DNA of 64,000 nt, from NCBI GenBank assembly GCA_017459075.1, contig JAFUDQ010000013.1, positions 1 to 64,000 on the forward strand. The letters are read 5' to 3'. Every line of letters starts with the position of its first letter. Within the stretch, counting starts at the first letter, position 1. Under the pieces are notes generated by a model. That model was not told the origin of the DNA, ran no database searches, and saw only the letters and a program-made list of their open reading frames with translations. Positions 3,019 through 58,102 of this stretch are shown here, piece by piece. The translations under genes and the position numbers were made by a program. Source of the DNA: Bacteroidales bacterium. GTDB lineage: Bacteria; Bacteroidota; Bacteroidia; Bacteroidales; UBA932.

Positions 3019-6000
3019 TTAAAGCTCGTTCATCTCGCGCTCATACTCCTCCTTGCTGCCAACAACCAGATCCTGGTAATCCTTAAGACCGGTTCCGGCA
3101 GGAATGAGGTGACCGCTGATAACATTCTCCTTAAGACCCTCAAGGTTATCTACGCGGGCGCGGATAGCAGCCTCGCTGAGCACCTTCGTAGTCTCCTGGA
3201 AGGAAGCGGCAGAAATGAAGCTGTCTGTCTTGAGCGCAGCCCTTGTGATACCCTGGAGAACAAGTGAAGCAGTTGCAGGCACAGCCTCGCGAACAGCCAT
3301 CATCTTCAAGCCCTGACGGCTCAGAGAATCATTCTCACCGCGCATGTCATGCTCGGAAATAATGTCTCCGGGATAATACTTGGTGGAATCTCCGGCGTCC
3401 AGCACATAGTACTTGCCATAGATTTCATCATTGGTATCCATGAACTTCCACTTGTCCACAAGCTCCTCAGGAAGGAATCCGGTATCACCAGGATTTCCAA
3501 TCTGAACCTTGCGCATCATCTGGCGGACGATAATCTCAAAATGCTTGTCATTGATCTTTACACCCTGCAGACGGTACACAGCCTGAACTTCGTTAACAAT
3601 GTACTCCTGAGCCTTAACAGGACCAAGGACATTGAGGATATCGGAAGGAGAAACACCACCGTCGGAAAGCCTTGCGCCGGCCCTTACGTAGTCATTCTCC
3701 TGAACAAGGATCTGCTTGGTAAGAGGAACAAGATAATGCTTCTCTATGCCGCTGCGATGGCGAACGATAATCTCACGGTTACCCCTCTTGACCTTACCCA
3801 TGATAACTTCACCGTTAATCTCGGAGATAATGGCAGGGTTGGAAGGATTACGGGCCTCGAAGAGCTCTGTAACGCGGGGCAGACCACCGGTAATATCGGA
3901 AGCCTTACCGATTGCGCGAGGTATCTTGATAACAGTGTCACCAATCTTAACCTCTGAGCCATCCTCTACGGTAACGTGGGCACCTACAGGCAGGTTGTAC
4001 TGCTTCAGGACCTTGCCCTCGCCGTCTACGATAAGCAGTGACGGGTTCATAGCCTTGTTACGGGACTCGATAACCACCTTGTCACGGCTTGCAGACATAC
4101 CGTCGGAAGCCTCGCTGCGGAAGGTAACATCCTCCTGCATATTCTCGAAGCGAACGGTACCGGCGATTTCCACGATAGTGGTAGCGTTGTAAGCATCCCA
4201 CTCGCAGATAAGGTCGCCCTTAACTACGCTCTCACCATCCTTCTTGTACAGGCGTGCTCCGTAAGGAACATCGTACTGGGAGAAGGTGATTCCGGTATTC
4301 TCGTCCACGATGCGGAGCTCTGTAGAGCGGCTGACAACGATGAGCTGTTTGCCGTCCTCTGCATCCTTTTCAATGGTACGAAGCTCGTCATAATGGAGCT
4401 TACCGTTGTATTTGGATTCGATGGATGAATCAGCTGCAGTAGAAGATGCGGTACCACCAACGTGGAAGGTACGCAGGGTAAGCTGTGTACCAGGCTCACC
4501 GATGGACTGTGCAGCGATAACGCCCACAACCTCACCTTTCTCAACCATCCTGCTGGTAGCGAGGTTACGTCCGTAGCACTTAGCGCAGACACCCTTGCGG
4601 GACTCGCAGGTAAGTACGGAACGAATCTCAACCTGCTCGATAGGAAGAGAGTTGATAAGATCTGCATCTTTCTCCCTGATCTCTTCGCCGGCCTTGATGA
4701 TAAGTTCTCCGGTAAGAGGATTGAAAATATCGTGTACCGATGTACGGCCAAGAATACGCTCTCCAAGAGACTCAACAACCTCGTCCTTGTTCTTGATGGC
4801 GGTAGCCACAAGACCGCGAAGAGTGCCGCAGTCGTCCTCTGTGATGATGACATCGTGGGAAACGTCTACAAGACGCCTTGTCAGGTAACCTGCATCAGCA
4901 GTCTTGAGGGCGGTATCAGCAAGACCCTTACGTGCACCGTGGGTAGAGATGAAGTACTCAAGCACTGTCATTCCTTCCTTAAGGTTGGAGATGATAGGAT
5001 TCTCGATAATCTCCGCTCCGGCGGCACCGGACTTCTGGGGCTTGGCCATAAGGCCACGCATACCGCAAAGCTGCTTGATCTGCTGGGTTGAACCACGGGC
5101 ACCGGAATCCAGCATCATGTAAACAGGGTTGAAGCCCTGCTGGTCGCTGGAAATCTTGGCGGTCACGATGCTCTGGAGCTTGCTGTCGATAGAAGACCAG
5201 AGGTCGATAACCTTGTTGTAGCGCTCGTTGTTGGTGATAAGACCCCACTGGTAATTGCCGCGGATTTCCTCTACACCCTTGTAACCTTCCTCAATGAGGG
5301 CTGCTTTCTCTTCAGGGATAAGCACATCGCCAAGGTTGAAGGAAATACCTGCACGGAATGCCTGGTCATAACCAAGGTTCTTGATATCGTCAAGGAATTT
5401 GGCGGTGCGGGTAACACCGGTATTCTTGATTACATTGGTAATAATCTTGCGGAGAGACTTCTTTCCAAGCACCTCGTTAACGTAAGGAACCTCATCAGGA
5501 ACATACTGGTTCACAATGATACGGCCGGCGGTAGTTTCCACCATCTCAGTACCCTTGGTAGGATCCATTTTGTCCTTGGGAAGACGTACGTTGATAAGGG
5601 CGTGCATGTCGATAGCCTTCTCATTGTAGGCTACGATGACATCCTCTGCTCCGTAGAAGTACTTTTTCTCACCCTTTGCACCGGGACGAACCTTGGTGAT
5701 GTAGTACAGACCAAGCACCATATCCTGTGAAGGCACGGTGATAGGGGTACCGTTGGCGGGGTTAAGAATGTTCTGGCTTCCGAGCATGAGCAACTGGGCC
5801 TCCATGATGGCAGCGTTGCCAAGAGGGAGGTGAACAGCCATCTGGTCACCATCGAAGTCTGCGTTGAAAGCGGTACAAGCGAGAGGATGCAGCTGGATTG
5901 CCTTACCCTCGATCATCTTGGGCTGGAAAGCCTGGATACCAAGCCTGTGCAGGGTAGGTGCACGGTTCAGCAGAACAGGATGACCCTTCATCACGTTCTC

Positions 6001-7266
6001 AAGGATATCCCAGATAACAGGGTCCTTGCGGTCAACGATTTTCTTTGCACTCTTGACGGTCTTTACAATACCACGCTCTATCAGCTTCCTGATAATGAAC
6101 GGTTTGTAAAGCTCTGCAGCCATGAATTTTGGCAAACCGCACTCGTGCATGTTAAGCTCAGGACCAACAACGATAACGGAACGGGCTGAATAGTCCACAC
6201 GTTTACCAAGGAGGTTCTGGCGGAAGCGTCCCTGCTTACCCTTAAGGCTGTCAGAAAGGCTCTTGAGAGCCCTGTTGGATTCGCTCTTGACTGCGCTTGA
6301 CTTCTTGGAGTTGTCAAACAGTGAGTCGACAGCCTCCTGAAGCATACGCTTCTCGTTGCGGAGAATCACCTCCGGAGCCTTTATCTCTATAAGTCTCTTA
6401 AGACGATTGTTACGGATGATTACCCTTCGGTAAAGGTCATTGAGGTCCGATGTTGCGAAACGGCCGCCATCGAGGGGAACCAGAGGACGGAGATCCGGCG
6501 GAATAACCGGAATCACCTTCATGATCATCCACTCGGGACGGTTGACGTCCTTGGACTCCTCAAACCACTTGACGATGGAAAGCCTCTTGAGGATTTCCGT
6601 CTTGCGCTGCTGGGAAGTCTCCTGTGCCATGGCGATGCGAAGCTCGCGGGCGAGGGCGACTACATCGATTTCCTTAAGAAGGTCGTAAATACCTTCCGCA
6701 CCCATCTTTGCTACGAACTTGTCCGGATCGTCATCTGCCAGGGAGGCATTCTCCGGAATGGTGGCAAGCACGTCAAGATACTCTTCCTCTGAAAGGAGGT
6801 CAAGCTTCTCAAGGCCGCTCTTTCCGGGTTTGATAACCACGTACTTCTCATAGTAAATGACAGTCTCCAGTTTCTTTGAAGGCATGCCGATGAGGGCAGA
6901 AATCTTGTTAGGAGCTGATTTGAAATACCAGATATGTGCTACAGGCACGGTAAGGGTGATATGACCCATCCTTTCCCTGCGCACCTTCTTCTCTGTTACT
7001 TCCACGCCGCAGCGGTCGCAGACGATTCCGCGGTAGCGAATCCTCTTGTACTTGCCGCAATAGCATTCGTAATCTTTGGTAGGACCGAAGATTTTCTCAC
7101 AGAAAAGACCGTCTTTCTCAGGCTTGTAAGTCCTGTAGTTCACCGTTTCAGGCTTCAGGACCTCTCCGCATGACCTCGCGCTGATATCCTCAGGGGAAGC
7201 CAGGGAGATGCTGATTCTCTGGAAATTGCTCTTTACCTTATTGTCTTTATTGTTGAAAGTAGGCAT
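3019..7266 (-). CDS. rpoC: DNA-directed RNA polymerase beta' subunit
   Basis: Catalytic core subunit of RNA polymerase, 1,415 residues, full length for Bacteroidota. Visible landmarks are the N-terminal zinc finger (Cys68, Cys70, Cys83, Cys86), the universal magnesium-binding NADFDGDQM motif (Asp470, Asp472, Asp474) and the second zinc site ([13 protein letters not shown]) in the C-terminal third. The gene follows rpoB by 28 bases on the same transcript and is closed by an intrinsic terminator at 2942-2972. The start [15 protein letters not shown] is typical of the phylum. No disruption is seen. Confidence 0.99.
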
Positions 7267-7294
7267 ATTTCTTTATTCAAATCTGGGGTTTCAA

Positions 7295-10200
7295 TTAGTC
7301 CAAAGTAACTTTAAGGCCGAGTCCGCGAAGCTCATGCAGGAGCACGTTCAGGGACTCAGGAATACCGGCAGCGGGCATAGGATCGCCCTTAACAATAGCC
7401 TCATAGGTCTTGGACCTGCCGACTACGTCATCAGACTTCACGGTAAGAATCTCCTGGAGTGCATTTGCAGCACCGAAGGCCTCAAGGGCCCAAACCTCCA
7501 TCTCTCCGAATCTCTGGCCACCGAACTGGGCTTTACCGCCGAGAGGCTGCTGTGTGATAAGGGAGTAAGGTCCGATGCTTCTTGCATGCATCTTGTCGTC
7601 AACCATGTGACCAAGCTTGATCATATAGATGACACCGACAGTAGCGGGCTGGTCGAACCAGTCACCGGTACCACCATCGCGAAGATGGGTCTTTCCGTAA
7701 CGGGGAACACCTGCTTTGTCCGTATAGTCGCAGATTTCCTCGATGCTTGCACCGTCGAAGATAGGGGTGCTGAACTTAAGGCCCAGTTTCGCGCCTGCCC
7801 ATCCGAGCACGGTCTCGTAAATCTGGCCGAGGTTCATACGTGAAGGCACGCCCAGAGGGTTGAGCACGATATCCACGGGAGTACCATCCTCAAGGAACGG
7901 CATATCCTCTTCGCGGACAATCTTTGCCACGATACCCTTGTTTCCGTGACGTCCCGCCATCTTGTCACCCACGGTGATTTTTCTCTTCTTTGCGATGTAA
8001 ACCTTTGCAAGCTGCATTACACCGTTGGGAAGTTCGTCACCAATCTTCAGTTTGTCAATGAGCCTCTTGTTTCTTGCTGCCTCTTCCTTGACGGCGATGC
8101 AGTAGTTGTTGATGAGTTCCTTGACAAGGAGGTTGGTATTCTTGTCCGATGTCCACTTGTTGGAGTTGACATTGTCGTAATCGATGGTCTTAAGCACATC
8201 GGCGGTGATAACCTTTCCCTTGGAAAGAATCTCAACGCCGTAGAGGTCGCTGATACCGGTGGTCTTCTTGCCCTCTACGAGGGTGAGAAGCTTCTCAAGG
8301 AAGGTAGCGAACAGGGCTTCCTGCTTGCGTGCGAAATCCTCCTCAAGAGCATCGGTCTTGGCCTTCTGCTCGGCCTTTCCGCCGCGGCGTCCGGTCTCTT
8401 TTGCAACCTTTGCGTAAAGAGCTGTCTTAATGATAGTTCCGCTAAGTGAAGGATTAGCCTTGAGGGAAGCGTCCTTTACATCACCGGCCTTGTCGCCGAA
8501 GATTGCACGGAGCAGTTTCTCTTCCGGAGAAGGATCGCTCTCACCCTTAGGGGTGATTTTACCGATCATGATGTCACCCGGCTCGATGTGTGCACCGATG
8601 CGGACGATACCGGTCTCGGGATCCAAATCCTTTGTGGCATCCTCGCTTACGTTAGGAATATCGGAAGTAAGCTCTTCCATTCCGCGCTTGGTCTCACGAA
8701 CCTCGGTAAGGTATTCGTCAACATGGATGGAAGTAAGGATATCCCAACGTACCATCTTCTCACTGAGGACGATAGCATCCTCATAGTTGTAACCTTTCCA
8801 AGGCATGAAGGCAACCATAAGGTTCCTTCCAAGTGCGAGTTCTCCGTCCTGTGTTGCATAACCTTCTGTAAGCACCTGACCGGCCTCAATCTTGTCACCC
8901 TTGCGGACGATAGGCTTGAGAGTGATTGTGGTGCTCTGGTTGGTTCTGCGGCAGATAGGGAGACGGTATACGGTAACCTCAGGAGAGAAGCTTACGAACT
9001 TCTCATCGTCTGTGCGGTCGTACTTGACATGAATCTCGTTTGCATCGACATAAACGACCTCACCCTTGCGCTCTGCAATAACCTGGGTGCGGGAATCGAC
9101 GCAGACGGTCTCTTCCAGACCTGTACCAACGATAGGGGACTCGGGGCTGAGGAGCGGAACTGCCTGGCGCATCATGTTCGCACCCATGAGGGCACGGTGG
9201 GCATCGTCATGCTCAAGGAAGGGAATGAGGGATGCAGCAACGGATGCCATTTGGTTAGGAGCAACATCCATGTAGTCAACCTCTTCTTTGGTAACTACAG
9301 GGAAGTCAGCCTCCTTGCGGCACTGAATCCTGTCGTCAAGGATGTTTCCGTCGTCATCCATCTTCACGTTTGCAAGGGAGACGAGTTTGTTCTCCTCTTC
9401 CTCTGCGCTCATGAAGCCCCAGCCTTCGTCGCTAAGGTCTACTTTTCCGTTCTCTACCTTGCGGTAAGGAGTCTCAATGAAGCCAAGGTCGTCAATCTTC
9501 GCGTAAACGCAAAGGGATGAAATAAGACCGATGTTCGGGCCTTCAGGTGACTCGATAGGGCAGAGTCTTCCGTAGTGGGTATAGTGTACGTCTCGAACCT
9601 CGAATCCGGCGCGGTCTCTTGAAAGACCACCGGGGCCAAGGGCTGAGAGACGCCTCTTGTGAGTAATTTCTGCAAGAGGGTTGGTCTGGTCCATGAACTG
9701 GCTCAGCTGGCTGGTCCCGAAGAAGGAATTGATAACGGAGCTGAGAGTCTTGGAGTTGATAAGATCAGTGGGGTTGAACTGCTCGCTGTCGCGGACATTC
9801 ATCCTCTCACGTATGGTTCTTGCCATCCTTGAGAGACCTACGCTGAACTGGTTTGCAAGCTGCTCTCCTACGGTGCGTACGCGCCTGTTGCTAAGGTGGT
9901 CGATATCGTCCACGGTAGCCTTGGAGTTGGTGAGCTGGATGAGATACTTGATAATCTCGATGATATCATTGTTGGTCAGCACCCTGATAGACGGGTCTGT
10001 GGTCATTTCAAGCTTCTTGTTGAGTCTGAAACGGCCTACGCTGCCAAGATCGTATCTCTTCTCAGAGAAGAACAGTTTGTCGATGACGTCCCTTGCGGTA
10101 GCCTCATCCGGCGGTTCACTGTTGCGAAGCTGTTTGTAGATATAGTTGACGGCTTCTTTCTCTGTGTTCGTAGGGTCTTTCTGCAGAGTGTTGAAGATGA

Positions 10201-14179: not shown

Positions 14180-14250
14180 CAGGGGAAGCAGGATTCGAAC
14201 CCACATCGACGGTTTTGGAGACCGCTGAACTACCCTTGTTCTATTCCCCT
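14180..14250 (-). tRNA. tRNA-Trp (anticodon CCA)
   Basis: 71-base cloverleaf on the minus strand. Acceptor AGGGGAA pairs with TTCCCCT, discriminator G. Anticodon stem GCGGT/ACCGT carries CTCCAAA; T-arm loop TTCGAATC. The 3' CCA is not encoded. It sits between tuf and secE, a conserved bacterial arrangement. A hairpin (14256-14264 with 14284-14292) separates it from tuf and may guide processing. Confidence 0.95.
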
Positions 14251-14309
14251 GTGGGAAAGACAGACCGTCTTTTTACGGGCCGATCTGTCTTTAATTATTT
14301 CTTGAGAAC

Positions 14310-15503
14310 TTAGTCCTCGATGCGGATTACCTGTCCTGCACCAACGGTACGTCCACCTTCGCGGATAGCGAACTGGAGACCCTCGTTCATAGCAACAGGA
14401 GTGATGAGCTTAACCTGAATCTCTACGTTATCACCAGGCATAACCATCTCCTTGTCAGCAGGGAGCATAATCTCACCAGTTACATCCAGTGTACGGATGA
14501 AGAACTGAGGACGATAGTGGTTGTGGAAAGGAGTGTGACGGCCACCCTCTTCTTTCTTGAGGACGTAGATCTGGGCTACGAAGTCGGTATGAGGAGTAAT
14601 AGACTTGGGAGCTGCTACAACCTCACCTCTCTTAACCTCTTTCTTATCTACACCACGAAGGAGAAGACCAACGTTATCACCAGCCTCACCCTGAGGGAGG
14701 AGTTTGCGGAACATCTCAACGCCGGTAACGACTGAGGTGCGAGGCTCATCGCCGAAGCCAACGAGCTCAACAGGGTCGTTAACGTGGATGGTACCAGCCT
14801 CGATACGGCCTGTAACAACGGTACCACGACCGGTGATGGAGAAGATGTCCTCGATAGGCATAAGGAAGGGCTTGTCAACAAGACGAACCGGCAGAGGAAT
14901 GTACTCATCAACTGCGTTCATGAGGTCCATAACCTTGTCTTCCCACTCTTTCTCACCGTTGAGTGCACCAAGTGCAGAGCCACGGATGATAGGGCAGTTC
15001 TCGTCGAAGTTGTAGAATGCGAGGAGGTCACGGATCTCCATCTCTACGAGGTCGAGCATTTCCTCATCGTCAACAAGGTCAACCTTGTTCATGAAAACGA
15101 GGATCTTAGGAACGTTTACCTGGCGGGCAAGAAGGATGTGCTCACGAGTCTGAGGCATAGGACCGTCAGTTGAAGCAACAACCAGGATTGCACCGTCCAT
15201 CTGGGCAGCACCAGTAACCATGTTCTTTACGTAGTCAGCATGGCCAGGGCAGTCTACGTGTGCATAGTGACGATTAGCTGTTTCGTACTCTACGTGTGCA
15301 GAGTTGATGGTGATACCACGCTCTTTCTCTTCAGGAGCGTTGTCAATCTGATCGAAGGATTTAACCTTGTCAGCGTTACCTGCAACTCTCTCTGCAAGTA
15401 CCTTGGTAATAGCAGCGGTAAGAGTTGTTTTACCGTGGTCAACATGGCCAATTGTACCGATGTTAACATGCGGCTTGGTTCTCTGGAATGTTTCTTTTGC
15501 CAT
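14310..15503 (-). CDS. tuf: Translation elongation factor Tu
   Basis: GTPase delivering aminoacyl-tRNA to the ribosome, 397 residues, full length. G1 motif GHVDHGKT (residues 19-26), G3 DCPGHADY, G4 NKVD, followed by the two beta-barrel domains ending [15 protein letters not shown]. It is embedded in a tRNA-rich transcript (Thr, Tyr, Gly, Thr upstream; Trp downstream), so its products act on each other's pathway. This is the only tuf in the window. Confidence 0.99.
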
Positions 15504-15554
15504 AATATTATGTTTAAATTGTGTATATACTTATTAACACTATTTCATAAAATG

Positions 15555-15626
<72 letters not shown>

Positions 15627-15634
15627 TTAACCAG

Positions 15635-15707
15635 AGCGGAAAACGAGGTTCGAACTCGCGACCCTCAGCTTGGAAGGCTGATGCTCTACCAACTGAGCTA
15701 CTTCCGC
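15635..15707 (-). tRNA. tRNA-Gly (anticodon TCC)
   Basis: 73 bases, minus strand. Acceptor GCGGAAG pairs with TTTCCGC (one G-T). Anticodon stem TCAGC/GCTGA with loop CTTCCAA (TCC, reads GGA/GGG). Eight bases separate it from the following tRNA-Thr. A spacer of about 49 bases upstream contains the small hairpin AAATGTGG-5nt-CCACATTT. Confidence 0.96.
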
Positions 15708-15756
15708 GTTTCTCATATGAAAAATGTGGAAGTACCACATTTCCTATGAATATTTG

Positions 15757-15837
15757 TGGGAGGTGGTGGACTCGAACCACCGAACCCTGAGGGAGCGGAT
15801 TTACAGTCCGCCGCAATTGCCACTATGCGAACCTCCC
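15757..15837 (-). tRNA. tRNA-Tyr (anticodon GTA)
   Basis: 81 bases with the long variable arm expected of class II tRNA-Tyr. Acceptor GGGAGGT/ACCTCCC, discriminator A, anticodon loop CTGTAAA. Second gene of the tRNA-tuf transcript. Confidence 0.96.
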
Positions 15838-15860
15838 AAAGTTTTTAAGCCTTTCAGCTG

Positions 15861-15934
15861 AGCCGATAGAGGGATTCGAACCCACGACCCCGAGATTACA
15901 AATCACGTGCTCTGGCCAACTGAGCTATATCGGC
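15861..15934 (-). tRNA. tRNA-Thr (anticodon TGT)
   Basis: 74 bases, minus strand. Acceptor GCCGATA/TATCGGC, discriminator T, loop TTTGTAA (TGT, reads ACA/ACG). The anticodon stem CGTGA/TCTCG has one T-T mismatch in its middle pair; the rest of the cloverleaf is normal. First gene behind the promoter at 15963-15993. Confidence 0.94.
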
Positions 15935-37795: not shown

Positions 37796-37869
37796 GGTGA
37801 GTGATGGGGCTCGAACCCACGACACTCGGAACCACAATCCGATGCTCTACCAACTGAACTACACTCACC
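37796..37869 (-). tRNA. tRNA-His (anticodon GTG)
   Basis: Minus strand; acceptor GTGAGTG/CACTCAC with discriminator C and the extra 5' G (-1, position 37869) typical of tRNA-His. Anticodon stem TCGGA/TCCGA with loop TTGTGGT. No encoded CCA. It lies 51 bases downstream of the NigD-like gene and directly before a terminator. Confidence 0.96.
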
Positions 37870-51125: not shown

Positions 51126-52469
51126 ATGAAGACACAAGAAATTATGGCCAAACTTCAGGCCAAGTATCCTCTTGAGAAGGAGTATCTCCAGGCTGTTCAG
51201 GAAGTTCTCGAGTCTATCGAGGAGGTTTACAACCAGCATCCTGAGTTCGAAAAGGCAAAAATCGTTGAAAGAATGGTTGAGCCCGATCGTATTTTCACCT
51301 TCCGTGTTACTTGGGTTGATGATAAGGGTGAGGTTCAGACCAACCTCGGTTACCGTATTCAGTTCAACAGCGCAATCGGTCCCTACAAGGGAGGTCTCCG
51401 CTTCCACAAGGCTGTAACCCCTTCAATGCTTAAGTTCCTCGGCTTCGAGCAGACATTCAAGAACGCTCTTACCACTCTCCCTATGGGTGGCGCAAAGGGT
51501 GGTTCAGACTTCGACCCCGTAGGCAAGTCCAACGACGAAATCATGCGTTTCTGCCAGGCTTTCATGCTTGAGCTTTGGAACTGCATCGGCCCTGACCAGG
51601 ATATCCCTGCAGGTGACGTAGGTGTTGGTGGCCGTGAGATTGGCTTCCTCTATGGTATGTACAAGAAGCTCGCCCGCCAGTACAATACCGGTGTTCTTAC
51701 CGGCAAGGGTGGCACATGGGGCGGTTCAATCCTTCGTCCTGAGGCTACCGGTTTCGGCGCTCTCTATTTCACCCAGCACCTTCTTGCAAAGGCAGGCAAG
51801 GACATCAAGGGTAAGAAAGTCGCTCTCTCAGGCTTCGGTAACGTAGCATGGGGTGCTGCAACCAAGGCTACCGAGCTCGGTGCAAAGGTTGTTGCCATTT
51901 CAGGTCCTGACGGTGTTTGCCACATTCCTGACGGTATCACCAAGGAAATGATTGACTATATGCTTGACATGCGCGCTTCCAACCGCAACAAGGTAGAGGA
52001 TATGGCTACCAAGTTCCCTGAGAAGGCTCAGTTCACCGCCGGAAAGAAGGCATGGAGCATTCCTGTAGACATAGCTCTCCCTTGCGCATTCCAGAATGAG
52101 CTCAGCGAGGACGACGCTAAGGAACTCGTTGCCAACGGTTGCTGGTGCTGCTGCGAGGTATCCAACATGGGATGCCAGCCCGGTGCTATCCACTACTTCC
52201 AGAACAACGGTATCCTCTTTGCCCCTGGTAAGGCTGTAAACGCTGGTGGTGTTGCTACTTCCGGTCTTGAGATGACCCAGAACGCTTCCCATATCAGCTG
52301 GTCTGCAAAAGAGGTTGACGAGAAGCTTCACTTCATCATGGAGTCTATCCACGAGCAGTGCGTTAAGTTCGGTACTCAGCCTGACGGTCACATTGACTAT
52401 GTTAAGGGTGCCAACATCGCCGGCTTCATGAAGGTTGCACAGGCTATGCTTGAGCAGGGTACTATCTAA
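51126..52469 (+). CDS. gdhA: Glutamate dehydrogenase (hexameric, GdhA type)
   Basis: Reversibly aminates 2-oxoglutarate; main ammonia-assimilating enzyme in many Bacteroidales. 447 residues, full length. Conserved core YKGGLRFHKAVTPSMLKFLG, catalytic region TTLPMGGAKGGSDFDPVGKS, and dinucleotide site KVALSGFGNVAWGAATKATE. NAD versus NADP preference is not decidable by eye. The only gene on this side of the structured element at 52487-52583. Confidence 0.97.
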   Translation: MKTQEIMAKLQAKYPLEKEYLQAVQEVLESIEEVYNQHPEFEKAKIVERMVEPDRIFTFRVTWVDDKGEVQTNLGYRIQFNSAIGPYKGGLRFHKAVTPSMLKFLGFEQTFKNALTTLPMGGAKGGSDFDPVGKSNDEIMRFCQAFMLELWNCIGPDQDIPAGDVGVGGREIGFLYGMYKKLARQYNTGVLTGKGGTWGGSILRPEATGFGALYFTQHLLAKAGKDIKGKKVALSGFGNVAWGAATKATELGAKVVAISGPDGVCHIPDGITKEMIDYMLDMRASNRNKVEDMATKFPEKAQFTAGKKAWSIPVDIALPCAFQNELSEDDAKELVANGCWCCCEVSNMGCQPGAIHYFQNNGILFAPGKAVNAGGVATSGLEMTQNASHISWSAKEVDEKLHFIMESIHEQCVKFGTQPDGHIDYVKGANIAGFMKVAQAMLEQGTI

Positions 52470-52673: not shown

Positions 52674-55658
52674 ATGGGCAAATCAAAATTAAACGTTAAG
52701 TATTGTGTCCTCCTGCCCCTCGTGCTCCTGGTCACAATCTTCCTGGTTTCGGTTCCCGTAGATTTCTTTGGAATCCCCGGACTTACCGTTGTACAGCAGC
52801 GTGTGATTGCACTCTTCGTGTTCGCTGCGCTTATGTGGATGTTTGAGATAATTCCTAACTGGACAACATCCCTGTTGGTAATAGTATTCTCACTGCTATG
52901 CGTCTCCAACAAGGGTATCGGCTTCCTTTGCAAGCCTGAACTCGGCCAGCTGGTGAACTACACAGACATCATGAAGGCATTCGCAGACCCGGTTGTAATG
53001 CTCTTCCTCGGCGGCTTCGTGCTCGCCATCATGGCAGAGAAATACGGCCTTGACGTCACCCTTGCACGTCTCCTGCTCAAGCCTTTCGGAACAAAACCTA
53101 AGATGGTGCTTCTTGGCTTCCTCATCGTGATCGCCGTATTCTCAATGTTCATGAGCAATACTGCAACCGCCGCCATGATGCTTGCATTCCTTGCACCTGT
53201 GCTTGCAGTGCTTCCCGCCGGTGAAAAAGGCAAGGTAGGCCTTGCGCTTGCCATTCCTATCGCAGCAAACCTTGGTGGTATCGGAACCCCTATCGGAACC
53301 CCTCCTAACGCAACAGCTGTGAAGTTCCTTGCAGAGGCCGGTTATGAAGTTACCTTCGGTGAGTGGATGATCCGCATGGTCCCTTACGTAGCCATCATGA
53401 TTTTCGTCGCATGGATCCTCCTCCAGGTATTCTTCCCCTTCAAGAGTGACAAGGTTGTCCTTGAAATTCCTGAGAACAAGGCTAAGAAAGACTGGAAGTC
53501 AAAGGTCGTTTGGATTACCTTCATCGGCACCATCCTCCTCTGGGCTACCGAGTCCATTACCGGAATCAACTCCAACGTAGTTGCCCTTATTCCTCTTGGC
53601 GTCCTTACCTGCACAGGTATCTTCACCAAGGAAGACATCAAGCAGATTAACTGGAGCGTGCTCTGGCTTGTTGCCGGAGGCTTCGCCCTTGGTACCTGCC
53701 TTCAGGGAACAGGTCTTGCAAAGGTCCTCATCCAGGCAATTCCCTTCGGCTCAATGTCCGTAGTGCTCGTGCTTGTAGTTGCAGGTCTTGTTTGCTACTT
53801 CCTTTCCAACTTCATCAGCAACTCCGCTACTGCAGCCCTCCTTATCCCTATCCTCATCGTTGTGGCACAGGGTATGGCAGATCCCGCAGCAGCTAGCCAT
53901 GACAGCTTCTTCGCCCTTGGCGGCACCCATGCAATGATTACCTTCATCGCAGTGTGCGCCTCCATCGCAATGCTTTTCCCTATCTCCACCCCTCCGAATG
54001 CAATTGCAGCATCCACCGGTCTTGTAGAGACCAAGCAGATGGCAAAGATTGGCATAATCGTAGGTGTAGTCGGCTTTATACTTGGTTTCTTCTGGCTCAC
54101 AACCCTCTTCCCCTTCAAGAGCAAGCAGGTAGAGAACAACTCCAACGAGTATGTAACAGTAGCTCTCCAGACTCCTTCATCAGCTGAGACACTGAGCCCT
54201 AACGGCAAGGTTGTCATCGAGCTCTTCAAGAAGGCAGCACAGGAGGCTGACAAGATTTACTGGAAGCAGAACTTCGGAGACAGGAACGCCCTCATGGAGC
54301 AGCTTGCAGAAGACAAGGACGCCCTTGCATTCGCAAAGATTAACTACGGTCCTTGGGATCGCAATACTGATACTTCTTTCGTCGCCGGTTATGGCAACCG
54401 TCCTCTCGGAGCCAACTTCTATCCCGCAGACATGACTACGGAAGAGTTCGAGGCCTTCGCAGACCCTGCAAAGAACAGCCCTTACACCATCATCCGCAGG
54501 AATGATTCCGGTGCTCTTGAGACCGTTTGGTATCACGATGCATACAAGGAAAACATCGACAATATCTGCAATTATCTGCAGCAGGCTGCCGACACCACCA
54601 TCAAGGCCAGCGTACGTGAGTACCTCCTTAAGAAGATTGACGCCCTCCGTACCGACAACTACTATGATGCCGATATCGCATGGCTCAACATGACCGACAG
54701 CCGTATGGACCTTGTAATCGGCCCTAATGAGGACAATGATGACAAGCTCTTCGGCCGCAAGGCATCTTACAATGCATTCGTAGTGCTCAAGGATATGTAT
54801 CGTACAGCCGCACTTGAGAAGTTCAGTGCAATGCTTCCTGAGTTCCAGAGCAACCTGCCGGTTGAGGACAAGTACAAGAGCTTCGTTCCCGGAACATCTT
54901 CAAGCATCTTCTCTTGCGACGCCATCTACTATGCAGGTAACGCAAACGCAGGTTTCAAGGTTATCGCTATCAACCTTCCTTACGACGAGAAAGTCCAGCA
55001 GGAGAAGGGTACCCGTACCATTCTCTTCCAGAATGTGATTTCTGAGAAGTTCTATGCTACTGTTTACCCTGCCGGCAATATCCTCCTCTCCAATGAAGAG
55101 AAGTATTATATGGATGCCGATGCCTTCTATTGGAACATCGTCTTCCGTGAGGTTGCCCACGGCCTTGGTGTCAAGAAGACCCTTGCCGGAGCATCTGTAA
55201 CAGAGGCCCTTGGTGCCGATGCCTTCACACTTGAAGAGGTTAAGGCCAACGCCCTTGGTACATCCCTTGCCTGCCAGATGATTGACGAGAACAAGATTTC
55301 CGATATCATCCAGAAGAAGAACTCCATCGCTACCTTCGTGGCCAGCGTAATCCGTTCTACGAGATTTGGCTCCGTAGCCGCTACCGGCCGTGCCAACATC
55401 GTTATCTACAACTGGCTGCGTGAAAACGGCGCCATCACCCTTGATCTTGCTGAAAAGGCTTATGCAATCGACTATGCAAAGGCAGAAAGCTCAATCCGCG
55501 GCCTTGTTTCCAAGGTGCTGATGCTTCAGGCCGAAGGCGATGCCGCAGCTGCTTCAGCTTTCATCGAGAGCTATTCTACTGTTGACGAGGAACTCAAGGC
55601 CGCTATTGCAAAGATGGCCAAGGCTAAGATTCCTGTTGATATTATCTTCAAGCAGTAA
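52674..55658 (+). CDS. SLC13/DASS transporter fused to a degenerate M49-peptidase domain
   Basis: 994 residues, one uninterrupted frame. Residues 1-480 are a divalent-anion:sodium symporter: hairpin motifs MSNTATAAMM (about 160), GGIGTPIGTPPNA (about 202) and SNFISNSATAALLIPI (about 379), with some 11-12 helices. Residues about 500-994 match dipeptidyl peptidase III (M49): INYGPWDRNTD, GANFYPADMTTEEFEAF, YYAGNANAGFKVIAINLP and FREVAHGLGVKKT. The expected zinc motif HEVAH reads R825-E-V-A-H829, and the second motif EExKAD reads EEVKAN (854-859), so catalysis is doubtful. By homology with VcINDY the C-terminus should be periplasmic. Porin gene starts 2 bases after the stop. Confidence 0.85.
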   Translation: MGKSKLNVKYCVLLPLVLLVTIFLVSVPVDFFGIPGLTVVQQRVIALFVFAALMWMFEIIPNWTTSLLVIVFSLLCVSNKGIGFLCKPELGQLVNYTDIMKAFADPVVMLFLGGFVLAIMAEKYGLDVTLARLLLKPFGTKPKMVLLGFLIVIAVFSMFMSNTATAAMMLAFLAPVLAVLPAGEKGKVGLALAIPIAANLGGIGTPIGTPPNATAVKFLAEAGYEVTFGEWMIRMVPYVAIMIFVAWILLQVFFPFKSDKVVLEIPENKAKKDWKSKVVWITFIGTILLWATESITGINSNVVALIPLGVLTCTGIFTKEDIKQINWSVLWLVAGGFALGTCLQGTGLAKVLIQAIPFGSMSVVLVLVVAGLVCYFLSNFISNSATAALLIPILIVVAQGMADPAAASHDSFFALGGTHAMITFIAVCASIAMLFPISTPPNAIAASTGLVETKQMAKIGIIVGVVGFILGFFWLTTLFPFKSKQVENNSNEYVTVALQTPSSAETLSPNGKVVIELFKKAAQEADKIYWKQNFGDRNALMEQLAEDKDALAFAKINYGPWDRNTDTSFVAGYGNRPLGANFYPADMTTEEFEAFADPAKNSPYTIIRRNDSGALETVWYHDAYKENIDNICNYLQQAADTTIKASVREYLLKKIDALRTDNYYDADIAWLNMTDSRMDLVIGPNEDNDDKLFGRKASYNAFVVLKDMYRTAALEKFSAMLPEFQSNLPVEDKYKSFVPGTSSSIFSCDAIYYAGNANAGFKVIAINLPYDEKVQQEKGTRTILFQNVISEKFYATVYPAGNILLSNEEKYYMDADAFYWNIVFREVAHGLGVKKTLAGASVTEALGADAFTLEEVKANALGTSLACQMIDENKISDIIQKKNSIATFVASVIRSTRFGSVAATGRANIVIYNWLRENGAITLDLAEKAYAIDYAKAESSIRGLVSKVLMLQAEGDAAAASAFIESYSTVDEELKAAIAKMAKAKIPVDIIFKQ

Positions 55659-55660
55659 TT

Positions 55661-56938
55661 ATGAAAAAATTCATTCTCAGTATTTTTGCACTGGCAGCAC
55701 TCTCAACTGTGCTGCCGGCGCAGAATGAGACTCCTGCCAAGTTCAAGCTTTACGGCTTCATCCGCAACTACGCTGTTTTTGACAGCCGCGAAGTTATGGC
55801 CGGCACGGACGATCTTTATTTCTATATGCCCAAGGACGAGGCTATTATCGGCAACGATATCGACAATAACCAGAATCCTTCATTCCGTCTGCTGTCCCTT
55901 ACCACAAGGCTCGGTCTTGATATAAGCGGATATCAGTATGGCAGCATGAAACTCTCCGGAAAGGTAGAGGCAGACTTCTATTGCAAGAGCGGTTCTACCG
56001 CCGTCCTTCGCCTCCGTCAGGCTTACGTCGGCCTCACATGGGACAAACTCGGTGCAAAAGGAGAGAATTCCATCCTTTTGAACATCGGTCAGACATGGCA
56101 TCCCATGGCAGTCGATATGCCTCATATCGTAAACCTTGAGACCGGTGCTCCGTTCAATCCGTTCAACCGTTCTCCCCAGGTGATGTTCAACTACAATTTT
56201 GGCAAGACCATTACCCTTACTGGCGGTGCAATCTACGGCATGCAGTATCTTCCTGTAGGCCCCAAGAGCAACACAGACATGACTTCCACCAAGTCAGCCG
56301 ACTATATGAAGTATGGTCTTCTGCCGGAGTTTTACGCAGGAATCACCCTCAGGCCCTCATCTTCATTAATGGCCAAGGTTGGTGCCAACCTTTTCAGCAT
56401 CAAACCCCGTTGGAAAGACGCACAGGGTTCACTCAGCGACCGTCTTACCACAGTTTCCCCGTTCGTCTTCATGCAGTACACAGGAAAGAACGGCTTCCAG
56501 GTCAGGGCAAAGACTATCCTTGCCGATGCCGGAGAGCACATGAATCTTCTTACCGGCTACGGAGTAAGCAAGGTTAACACAGACGGCTCCTGGGAGTACA
56601 CCCCCATGCGTAGCACAGCTTCCTTCATCTCCATGCAGTATGGCAAGAAATGGCAGGTTATGGGTATGGTTGGTTACATGAAGCTTCTTGGTACCACCGA
56701 GGACCTTCTTGACAACACCCGCTACTGGTTCAATGGCAGCGGCGCATCCAACTTCACCCAGATGTTCCGCGTAACCCCTACCATCGCCTACAACTTGGGT
56801 AAACTCACCCTTGCCCTGGAGTATAACCTCACCGGAGTTGAGTACGGCTCTGACATGGATGCCGCCGGCATTGTTCAGAACGACCTCCACTGGGTTCTCA
56901 ACCATCGCATCCTTACCATGGTGAAGTTTACTTTCTAA
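55661..56938 (+). CDS. Outer-membrane porin paired with the SLC13-M49 protein
   Basis: 425 residues with signal peptide MKKFILSIFALAALSTVLPA...Q. Amphipathic strands throughout, for example FKLYGFIRNYAVFDSREVMA and LGLDISGYQYGSMKLSGKVE, and a C-terminal strand ILTMVKFTF with terminal Phe for BAM recognition. Not close to the OprO/P-like porin at 36,509. The ATG is 2 bases after the upstream stop, implying coupled synthesis with the inner-membrane carrier and delivery of its substrate across the outer membrane. Confidence 0.85.
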   Translation: MKKFILSIFALAALSTVLPAQNETPAKFKLYGFIRNYAVFDSREVMAGTDDLYFYMPKDEAIIGNDIDNNQNPSFRLLSLTTRLGLDISGYQYGSMKLSGKVEADFYCKSGSTAVLRLRQAYVGLTWDKLGAKGENSILLNIGQTWHPMAVDMPHIVNLETGAPFNPFNRSPQVMFNYNFGKTITLTGGAIYGMQYLPVGPKSNTDMTSTKSADYMKYGLLPEFYAGITLRPSSSLMAKVGANLFSIKPRWKDAQGSLSDRLTTVSPFVFMQYTGKNGFQVRAKTILADAGEHMNLLTGYGVSKVNTDGSWEYTPMRSTASFISMQYGKKWQVMGMVGYMKLLGTTEDLLDNTRYWFNGSGASNFTQMFRVTPTIAYNLGKLTLALEYNLTGVEYGSDMDAAGIVQNDLHWVLNHRILTMVKFTF

Positions 56939-56943
56939 GAGTT

Positions 56944-57945
56944 ATGAGGAATATAATTATAAAGTTTTTCGTAGTGGTGACAGTACTGTCCTCACTGGTT
57001 TCCTGCAAGAACACAAAGGCGCTGATGCCCAATATCAGCGGAAAGGCCGGGGAGGTTATAGTTGTCATTGACCGTGAGAATTGGCAGGGCAATCTTGGAA
57101 ATGCAGTCAGGGAACTGCTGGCCGATGAGTGCCCTTACCTTGTCCCCCGTGAGCCGATGTTTACGCTTTCCAACGTAAGTCCTTCCGGCTTCGGGGACCT
57201 TTTCAAGGTTCACAGGAACATTCTCATATTCAATATCAACCCACAGAATCAGAAAGAGCATGTAAACTATGCCACTGACATCTGGGCAACCCCGCAGTGC
57301 GTAATCCAGCTGGATGCCTTTGACAAGGATTCAGCCCTGGCCCTCCTTAAGGAGAACGCCCCCAGGATTATCAGTACGATAGAGCAGGCTGAAAGGGACA
57401 GGAACATTGCCAACGCTACCAGGTATGAGAATACTTCCATTGGTGATGCAGTAAGGGAAATGGTAGGAGGTAGCCCTCATTTCCCCGATGGCTACAGGAT
57501 TCGCAAGAATACCGGCAGCTTCATCTGGGTAGCTTATGATTCTGCTTCAATCCTTCAGGATATACTTGTTTATACATATCCGGCACAGGGTAACGAGCAG
57601 GATTTCACCATTGAGAATCTTATTGCCAACAGGAATGAGGTTCTTAAGGAAAATGTCCCCAGTACCGCCGAGGGCAGCTATATGACAACGGACGAGTCTT
57701 ATCTTAAGCCTACCGTAGAGTATCTCAAGTTCCGCGGACGCCAGTTTGCACAGGTTCGCGGATGGTGGGATGTTCACGGCGGATGGATGGGAGGCCCCTT
57801 TGTAACCCATGCCTTCTACAGCCAGGATGCCAAGAGCATTATTGTCCTGGATGCCTTTGTACATGCCCCCGGACATGACAAAAGACAGCTCTTAAGGCAG
57901 GTTGAATCTATAATTTATTCCTTTGAATGGAAGAAAAGCGAATAA
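56944..57945 (+). CDS. DUF4837-type lipoprotein
   Basis: 333 residues. Lipoprotein signal MRNIIIKFFVVVTVLSSLVS followed by Cys21-K. The mature part begins LMPNISGKAGEVIVVIDREN and includes GDLFKVHRNILIFNINPQNQ, GSFIWVAYDSASILQDILVY and QVRGWWDVHGGWMGGPFVTH, the pattern of the Bacteroidota family DUF4837, function unknown. Five bases after the porin stop; third gene of the operon. Confidence 0.85.
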   Translation: MRNIIIKFFVVVTVLSSLVSCKNTKALMPNISGKAGEVIVVIDRENWQGNLGNAVRELLADECPYLVPREPMFTLSNVSPSGFGDLFKVHRNILIFNINPQNQKEHVNYATDIWATPQCVIQLDAFDKDSALALLKENAPRIISTIEQAERDRNIANATRYENTSIGDAVREMVGGSPHFPDGYRIRKNTGSFIWVAYDSASILQDILVYTYPAQGNEQDFTIENLIANRNEVLKENVPSTAEGSYMTTDESYLKPTVEYLKFRGRQFAQVRGWWDVHGGWMGGPFVTHAFYSQDAKSIIVLDAFVHAPGHDKRQLLRQVESIIYSFEWKKSE

Positions 57946-58030: not shown

Positions 58031-58102
58031 GGTGGGTTCGTATAACGGTTAGTACTCGGGATTTTCATTCCCGCAATAGGAGTTCGATTCTCCTACCCAC
58101 TA
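58031..58102 (+). tRNA. tRNA-Glu (anticodon TTC)
   Basis: 72 bases. Acceptor GGTGGGT/ACCCACT with G1-T72 wobble as usual for bacterial tRNA-Glu, discriminator A. Anticodon stem CGGGA/TCCCG with loop TTTTCAT; T-arm loop TTCGATT. No encoded CCA. Confidence 0.96.

Follow-up and report, generated by a model that had tools for sequence, protein, structure and literature searches.

A zinc-site-deficient M49 peptidase domain fused to a DASS carrier in a Bacteroidales bacterium, a candidate solute receptor for secondary carriers

Introduction

Until TAXI-GltS systems were described, soluble receptors were known to serve just two kinds of secondary carrier, TRAP and TT, as stated in parts of the TAXI-GltS report (PMC12344293). 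Those parts describe lipoprotein receptors encoded beside GltS and some TAXI-GltS fusions, the latter in Lachnospiraceae, and set the TRAP membrane part beside VcINDY, a member of the DASS family, as elevator-type structures. Their authors suggest that an elevator mechanism may permit a receptor, further classes being needed to test this. Here we analyse 64,000 nucleotides of a Bacteroidales bacterium (assembly GCA_017459075.1, contig JAFUDQ010000013.1, positions 1 to 64,000, forward strand), from now on referred to as the window, in which one gene fuses a complete DASS/SLC13 carrier to an M49 peptidase domain with the fold of dipeptidyl-peptidase III (DPP III). Arginine replaces the first zinc-binding histidine of this domain; relatives sharing the arginine are called R-type and those with histidine H-type. 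We consider it probable that this dead M49 peptidase has been converted into a periplasmic receptor dedicated to supplying a secondary carrier with solute. The data further suggest a system wider than the fusion, namely a family of carrier-linked pseudopeptidases serving two carrier families, DASS and AspT.

TAXI-GltS may be regarded as the nearest working analogue. Like the R-type system, it combines a lipoprotein receptor, adjacent or fused, with a presumed elevator-type secondary carrier outside TRAP and TT, and acidic substrates are the likely common theme. Its receptor, however, has the TAXI fold and is N-terminal in fusions, whereas here a dead M49 domain is C-terminal and the carriers are of the DASS and AspT families. 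Because the receptor fold differs, the M49-carrier system is not a member of TAXI-GltS. TRAP and TT systems share the principle of a periplasmic receptor serving an ion-driven carrier, but their receptor folds are unrelated to DPP III. The bacterial pentapeptide-type DPP III enzymes (6EOM, 5ZUM) resemble the R-type domains in fold, cleft and conserved anchors at about 30% identity. These enzymes retain HEXXH together with the Glu that binds zinc, and they release dipeptides, whereas R-type domains have lost the first His, a Tyr and a further His, with the other ligands eroded. The carrier half resembles the Na+/dicarboxylate symporter VcINDY in fold and first SNT motif, but VcINDY has no receptor domain and the carrier half has SNS in place of the second SNT. 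In animals, collectrin/ACE2-B0AT1 and 4F2hc/rBAT-SLC7 also place a peptidase-like or enzyme-like ectodomain on an amino-acid transporter, that of 4F2hc being enzyme-like; they differ in fold and carrier and consist of separate subunits. According to parts of one report, collectrin, which is related to ACE2 but is no peptidase, supports B0AT1 (PMC4127817). No SLC13-M49 or other M49-transporter system was found by title or abstract among the open-access papers listed by the literature searches, a set that leaves subscription papers and most preprints uncovered.

If the receptor reading holds, two carrier families would at once join those served by soluble receptors, and the fold of their receptor would be an unrelated one. 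It would also provide a clear case of an enzyme becoming a receptor, with the same cleft, several of the same anchors and a fixed positive charge in place of the metal, and would assign a role to proteins whose annotation is probably that of a peptidase or an anion symporter. The window's genus is represented by more than 400 species genomes in the searched set, and its H-type relatives, together with naturally fused and unfused forms, make the receptor reading directly testable.

One gene encodes a DASS carrier and a folded M49 domain

The fused gene (52674..55658, plus strand) encodes 994 amino acids without an internal stop; the opposite strand contains several stops over the same stretch. 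Its parts are as follows.

52674..54125, plus strand: DASS/SLC13 carrier half, amino acids 1-484, domain about 1-480 (Pfam, NCBIfam, PDB, Foldseek)
53154..53162, plus strand: first carrier substrate motif, SNT, amino acids 161-163 (sequence)
53817..53825, plus strand: second carrier motif, SNS and not SNT, amino acids 382-384 (sequence)
54108..54143, plus strand: linker between the last transmembrane helix and the M49 domain, about amino acids 479-490 (structure model: helix 453-478 ends, local confidence below 50 at 483-489)
54144..55655, plus strand: M49 (DPP III-fold) pseudopeptidase domain, about amino acids 491-994 (Pfam, 6EOM sequence match, Foldseek)

We take SNT to be a carrier substrate motif, and a second SNT to be expected, by analogy to VcINDY. 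In a Pfam scan, the carrier half matched CitMHS (53-402, 1e-45) and Na_sulph_symp (14-470, 3e-36), while residues 622-832 matched Peptidase_M49 (PF03571, 2e-8, 33.4 bits with a cut-off of 21). The NCBIfam profile of the DASS/SLC13 family (TIGR00785, dass) scored 237.7 bits with a cut-off of 198.6. The single-frame fusion claimed by a preliminary description of the sequence is thus borne out by ORF (open reading frame) analysis, Pfam and NCBIfam, and the C-terminal half does not belong to a family unrelated to M49. Among PDB sequences, the C-terminal part matched DPP III of Caldithrix (6EOM, 9e-85) and Corallococcus (5ZUM, 1e-64), and the carrier half yeast Pho90 (5e-35) ahead of VcINDY (5e-33). 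All DPP III landmarks named earlier are present, namely GPWDR, GANFYPADMT, YYAGNANAG, INLP, REVAH (825-829) and EEVKAN (854-859).

The full-length AlphaFold model, built from 59 alignment rows, shows two folded halves with a mean pLDDT (predicted local distance difference test) of 83; its pTM (predicted template modeling score) of 0.61 leaves their mutual placement unsettled. In Foldseek comparisons the C-terminal half superimposes on 6EOM at 33% identity, with a template modeling score of 0.91 by target length and a root-mean-square deviation of 1.9; for the N-terminal half, superposition on VcINDY (6OKZ) gives a score of 0.78 by target length. By sequence and DPP III fold, the C-terminal half is a member of the M49 peptidase family by descent.

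The fusion is found in eight taxa, the window and loci L033, L034, L035, L036, L037, L038 and L197, always with the carrier first. As the seven other taxa come from separate assemblies and share both fusion and Arg, a local sequencing error or chimeric assembly is ruled out. When the window was compared with four fused relatives by a simple counting method, the ratio of nonsynonymous to synonymous substitution rates (dN/dS) came to 0.07-0.15 for the M49 half and 0.02-0.06 for the carrier half; synonymous divergence (dS) reached 1.2 for the most diverged pair. Purifying selection acts on the M49 half and rules out a pseudogene; neither sequencing or assembly error nor decay lies behind the fusion and Arg825. 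Further candidate fusions (L194, L195, L133/L193) were rejected, their long frames being N-terminal frame extensions.

Catalytic residues are lost while ligand anchors are kept

Residues were counted in 178 aligned short M49 domains, 122 R-type and 56 H-type, after dropping domains below 480 amino acids. The set includes near-copies (112 and 52 remain at 97% identity) and is non-random, R-type rows having been collected by likeness to the fusion or to an R-type profile. Numbering of the Caldithrix enzyme (CaDPP III) was transferred via an alignment to the 6EOM chain; for the second motif, the part of PMC5805324 drawn on prints E441/E442 while the chain alignment gives 411-412, and the alignment was used. 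The zinc-site and catalytic positions are listed below.

55146..55148, plus strand: Arg825 (codon CGT), replacing the first zinc His (CaDPP III His379; alignment)
55149..55151, plus strand: Glu826, the Glu380 of the HEISH motif, kept in 122/122 R-type and 56/56 H-type domains
55233..55250, plus strand: EEVKAN (854-859), remnant of EECKAD with Asp859 changed to Asn (alignment)
54735..54737, plus strand: Asn688 where M49 enzymes carry Tyr (CaDPP III Tyr242; Tyr in 56/56 H-type, 0/122 R-type)
55383..55385, plus strand: Thr904 where M49 enzymes carry His (CaDPP III His460; His in 56/56 H-type, 0/122 R-type)

We take Glu380/Glu826 to be the catalytic glutamate, and Tyr242 and His460 to be the counterparts of the catalytic Tyr318 and His568 of the human enzyme. 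The zinc-histidine loss claimed earlier extends to the whole R-type set: position 825 is Arg in 122 domains and His in 56, with no third residue, so HEXXH or HEXXGH with both histidines occurs neither in the fusion nor in any other R-type domain. The second motif histidine (829) is His in 95, Lys in 24 and Gln in 3 R-type domains. Within EEVKAN, E854 is invariant (122/122), 855 is E in 82, K in 30, D in 7 and another residue in 3, and N859 is found in 114/122; the window copy has Glu855 and Asn instead of Asp at 859. No alternative intact zinc site was seen in the alignment columns examined.

Residues assigned to ligand binding in CaDPP III behave differently (roles from parts of PMC5805324). 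In that enzyme, Glu240, Asn321 and Asn324 hold the substrate N-terminus and first carbonyl, and in the crystal an Ala-Lys dipeptide is held by Arg450, Lys346 and Leu318 (here 894, 792 and 764).

54729..54731, plus strand: Glu686, the amine-binding Glu240 of CaDPP III, 116/122 R-type
54972..54974, plus strand: Asn767, Asn321 of CaDPP III (human Asn391), 122/122
55047..55049, plus strand: Lys792, Lys346 of CaDPP III, dipeptide holder in 6EOM, 122/122
55353..55355, plus strand: Arg894, Arg450 of CaDPP III, dipeptide holder in 6EOM, 122/122

As Tyr, His and the zinc ligands were lost or eroded while anchors stayed, cutting appears to have been lost and much of the holding kept.

The charge of the cleft changed as well. 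It was summed over 15 sites, namely the zinc ligands, the Glu of the motif, Tyr242 and those S1, S2 and S' residues that parts of PMC5805324 name. Mean net charge at these sites rises from -3.96 in H-type to +0.34 in R-type domains, a shift of about +4. When 15 columns conserved in the H-type were drawn at random 20,000 times, no draw equalled or exceeded this shift. Two main sets of coupled pocket residues were found among the 122 R-type domains, H829/E855/E700/L904 in 69 and K829/K855/G700/T904 in 24, with 29 others.

R-type genes are linked to two carrier families

For gene linkage, a sample was chosen on the M49 profile alone. It comprises 73 R-type genes (the 30 best loci of a genus search and 40 loci taken down the ranked list with neighbours unseen, if not every row) and 55 H-type controls, of which the same genus contributes 11. 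ORFs below 430 amino acids or 250 bits and copies with identical last 300 residues were dropped, gaps were measured between stop-to-stop frames, and 20 loci partly chosen by frame length or tandem position entered the residue counts only. A DASS or AspT gene on the same strand within 200 bases accompanies 58 of the 73 R-type genes (DASS 32, AspT 26) and none of the 55 H-type genes (Fisher's exact test, 1.5e-22, a value that overstates the evidence because the genes are related). With divergent neighbours included, the number rises to 61. Ten R-type genes typed in a family search that used M49 only, the window among them, gave three fusions, four DASS neighbours, one AspT neighbour and two without either. 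Together with the eight fused taxa, the linkage reproduces the adjacent-or-fused receptor gene of binding-protein-dependent carriers; the fold (DPP III by Foldseek) is not the periplasmic-binding-protein fold of DctP, TAXI or TctC.

DASS and AspT are unrelated carrier families. The AspT assignment was made at L113 (Asp-Al_Ex, 3e-75; PRK03818 equivalog, 602.6 bits against 449) and extended to other loci by likeness to L113. An AspT/YidE-type carrier lies directly upstream of the M49 pseudopeptidase gene at L113, L193, L204-L206, L208, L210 and L211, with start and stop often a few bases apart. At nine loci (L201, L202, L203, L207, L209, L212, L223, L229 and L239) a DASS-B carrier is flanked on both sides by such genes, eight of them combining one FREIAKG with one FREVAHG motif. 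Possibly, these are two receptors for one carrier. At L212 the enclosed DASS-B gene is split into ORFs of 208 and 268 amino acids (5895-7332), an assembly error or a decayed gene, and at L229 another, different DASS carrier of 517 amino acids (5511-7061) lies behind the cluster.

Unfused R-type proteins look like lipoproteins, judging by a loose regular expression and not a signal-peptide program. A lipobox-like start was found in 32/34 unfused R-type and 34/36 H-type ORFs (near-copies included), compared with 283 of 1216 genes above 250 amino acids in the fetched loci (first 45 amino acids, M49 genes included). Two R-type ORFs did not match; a Cys box is visible in one of them, and the other has an extended ORF start. 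Lipoproteins of this kind are located outside the cytoplasmic membrane. The C-terminus of VcINDY is periplasmic, which agrees with a periplasmic M49 half in the fusion.

Phylogeny and distribution

A quickly built tree holds 52 R-type rows and, after 16 of the 38 H-type representatives were dropped, 22 H-type rows; near-copies were dropped as well. In it, a single branch divides the two types (Shimodaira-Hasegawa-like approximate likelihood ratio test, 100); 27 of 71 inner branches are weak. Changes of carrier partner forced by starred branches number at least 3 for DASS-A, 6 for DASS-B and 4 for AspT, and 5, 9 and 6 in the tree as drawn. Seven fused taxa form one supported group and the L197 fusion is set apart; constraining all eight together was not rejected (approximately unbiased test, p = 0.69), so there may have been a single fusion event.

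All 30 top-ranked loci from the genus search were R-type. Of 30 loci typed in an order search, two were R-type (the window and L133) and 28 H-type, and in a class search of 247 genomes the source genome alone reached 1e-190. Outside the window's genus, R-type genes were found in one other family of the order, in 5 of 20 genomes (5 of 11 from one genus), all five with Arg and an adjacent AspT frame. The second-family R-type genes beside AspT frames (L133, L193, L253-L256) may represent transfer between families.

Gene neighborhood of the fusion

The neighbours that bear on the fusion are the following.

51126..52469, plus strand: glutamate dehydrogenase (gdh), upstream of the fusion (ORF list, Pfam/NCBIfam)
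55661..56938, plus strand: porin-like outer-membrane protein, 425 amino acids, starting 2 bases past the stop codon of the fusion

Fusion and porin-like gene probably form one operon. The label porin-like is given because of a signal-type N-terminus and a C-terminal Phe; Pfam, NCBIfam and PDB searches returned zero matches for this protein.

The best 80 of 186 relatives of the fused protein were surveyed as carrier loci, a sample that leans towards fusions because the fused protein was the query. An M49 domain is fused in 6, adjacent in 19, within 5 kb in 4 and absent in 51, seven of the latter having short flanks. At 34 loci a porin-like relative is found no more than 300 bases from the carrier (5/6 fused, 6/19 adjacent, 0/4 within 5 kb, 23/51 without M49). 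Such genes are often found beside this carrier type, and their products may form an outer-membrane family without a name. Glutamate dehydrogenase is found within 6 kb of the carrier at 4/6 fused, 8/19 adjacent-M49 and 18/51 M49-free loci. At L045, L047, L048, L117 and L118 the unfused order is gdh, a lipoprotein-type M49 pseudopeptidase gene, DASS carrier and porin-like gene. The fusion reverses this order, with carrier first and M49 second, suggesting that a gene once ahead of the carrier became its C-terminal domain.

The source assembly is fragmented, with 2.3 Mb in 53 contigs, an estimated contamination of 8.16 and a completeness of 97.97; it has no Na_sulph_symp match besides the fused gene. 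It encodes one further, long M49 gene with HECLGH and EEARAD, and two AspT-type genes as deduced from four domain matches in two frames.

Proposed function and alternatives

We propose that in relatives of the fusion the receptor would be a lipoprotein-type protein encoded beside a DASS/SLC13 or AspT-type carrier, and that in the window's lineage it would be covalently tethered to the periplasmic end of its DASS carrier. A solute might first pass the outer membrane via the porin-like protein encoded alongside. The M49 cleft, formed by two lobes, would then shut on the solute, Glu686 and Asn767 contacting the amine end and Arg825, Lys792 and Arg894 the acidic end. Finally, the cleft would open above the carrier, which would take the solute inward by an elevator step; transport may depend on the domain. 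Acidic amino acids, glutamate or aspartate, and short acidic peptides are the most likely ligands. An anionic, amine-bearing ligand is suggested by the kept anchors and the more positive pocket, proximity and fusion point to the carrier as partner, nearby glutamate dehydrogenase with AspT-type and DASS partners points to acidic amino acids or dicarboxylates, and M49 ancestry points to peptides. The tethered binding domain envisaged in the preliminary description draws strong support from anatomy and gene context, with lipoprotein-type starts, DASS and AspT neighbours and anchors outliving catalytic residues. Of the checks it had named, a Pfam search, an alignment at position 825 and a structure prediction turned out in line with it: both domains were found, Arg is invariant in the R-type and the C-terminal domain is folded.

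Several observations weigh against a receptor. For 12 of the 73 R-type genes no carrier gene was found in the nearest 1.5 kb (at least one of them, L232, is cut by a contig end), and since R-type and H-type are separated by a single change on the tree, the linkage does not amount to many independent replicates. The 51 of 80 related carrier loci without an M49 gene within 5 kb indicate that this carrier type does not always depend on an adjacent M49 partner. In the cleft, the ligand anchor Asn324 is replaced by Phe or Tyr in 114/122 R-type domains, and S1/S2 positions 700, 756, 772 and 902 are variable. The charge sum omits the zinc ion (+2) of H-type enzymes; with zinc counted, the shift is about +2.3, a figure without a random control. 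Two of the three zinc ligands, His829 and Glu855, are retained in the window copy, which may hold a weak metal site. The periplasmic position of the fusion's C-terminus is taken from the orientation of VcINDY and has indirect support. Finally, DASS and AspT carriers are, to our knowledge, not known to take peptides.

The alternative that survives best, albeit an unlikely one, is a non-binding accessory subunit comparable to collectrin, in which the dead M49 domain helps to fold, place or regulate the carrier and the cleft is a leftover. Collectrin boosts B0AT1, probably via surface expression, and is non-essential for transport catalysis according to parts of PMC4127817; moreover, one fold serves two carrier families here, as a general chaperone might. 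A passive scaffold, however, would have no need of two main coupled pocket types, nor would it readily account for several cleft anchors staying invariant while catalytic residues drift, or for a directed change in cleft charge.

Less probable still is a remaining enzyme that uses the Arg site with another metal arrangement or a metal-free mechanism to trim peptides, the products being imported by the carrier. The invariant Glu826 and Glu854 and the frequent His829 and Glu855 would fit such an activity, and peptidase-carrier complexes are known, with aminopeptidase N (APN) raising the affinity of B0AT1 (parts of PMC4127817). Yet the first zinc His, the catalytic Tyr and the catalytic His are missing from every R-type domain, Lys occupies both remaining ligand positions together in 24 of them, and H-type relatives, which have the zinc motif, were not found beside these carriers in any of 55 cases. 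A roleless dead copy fused by chance and hitch-hiking beside gdh and the carrier would explain why many related carriers lack a nearby M49 domain, but is very improbable given the low dN/dS, the invariant Arg, the R-type state of the best genus loci, the R-type copies with AspT in a second family and the repeated re-pairing with carriers on the tree.

Further features of the window

RNA and promoter scans of the window returned nothing relevant to the fusion. A DUF4837 protein (PF16125) is encoded at 56944-57945, directly behind the porin-like gene; at L034 and L035 it is found nearby on the other strand. The window carries seven tRNA genes, located within 14180-15934, 37796-37868 and 58031-58102, four of which are clustered at 15555-15934.

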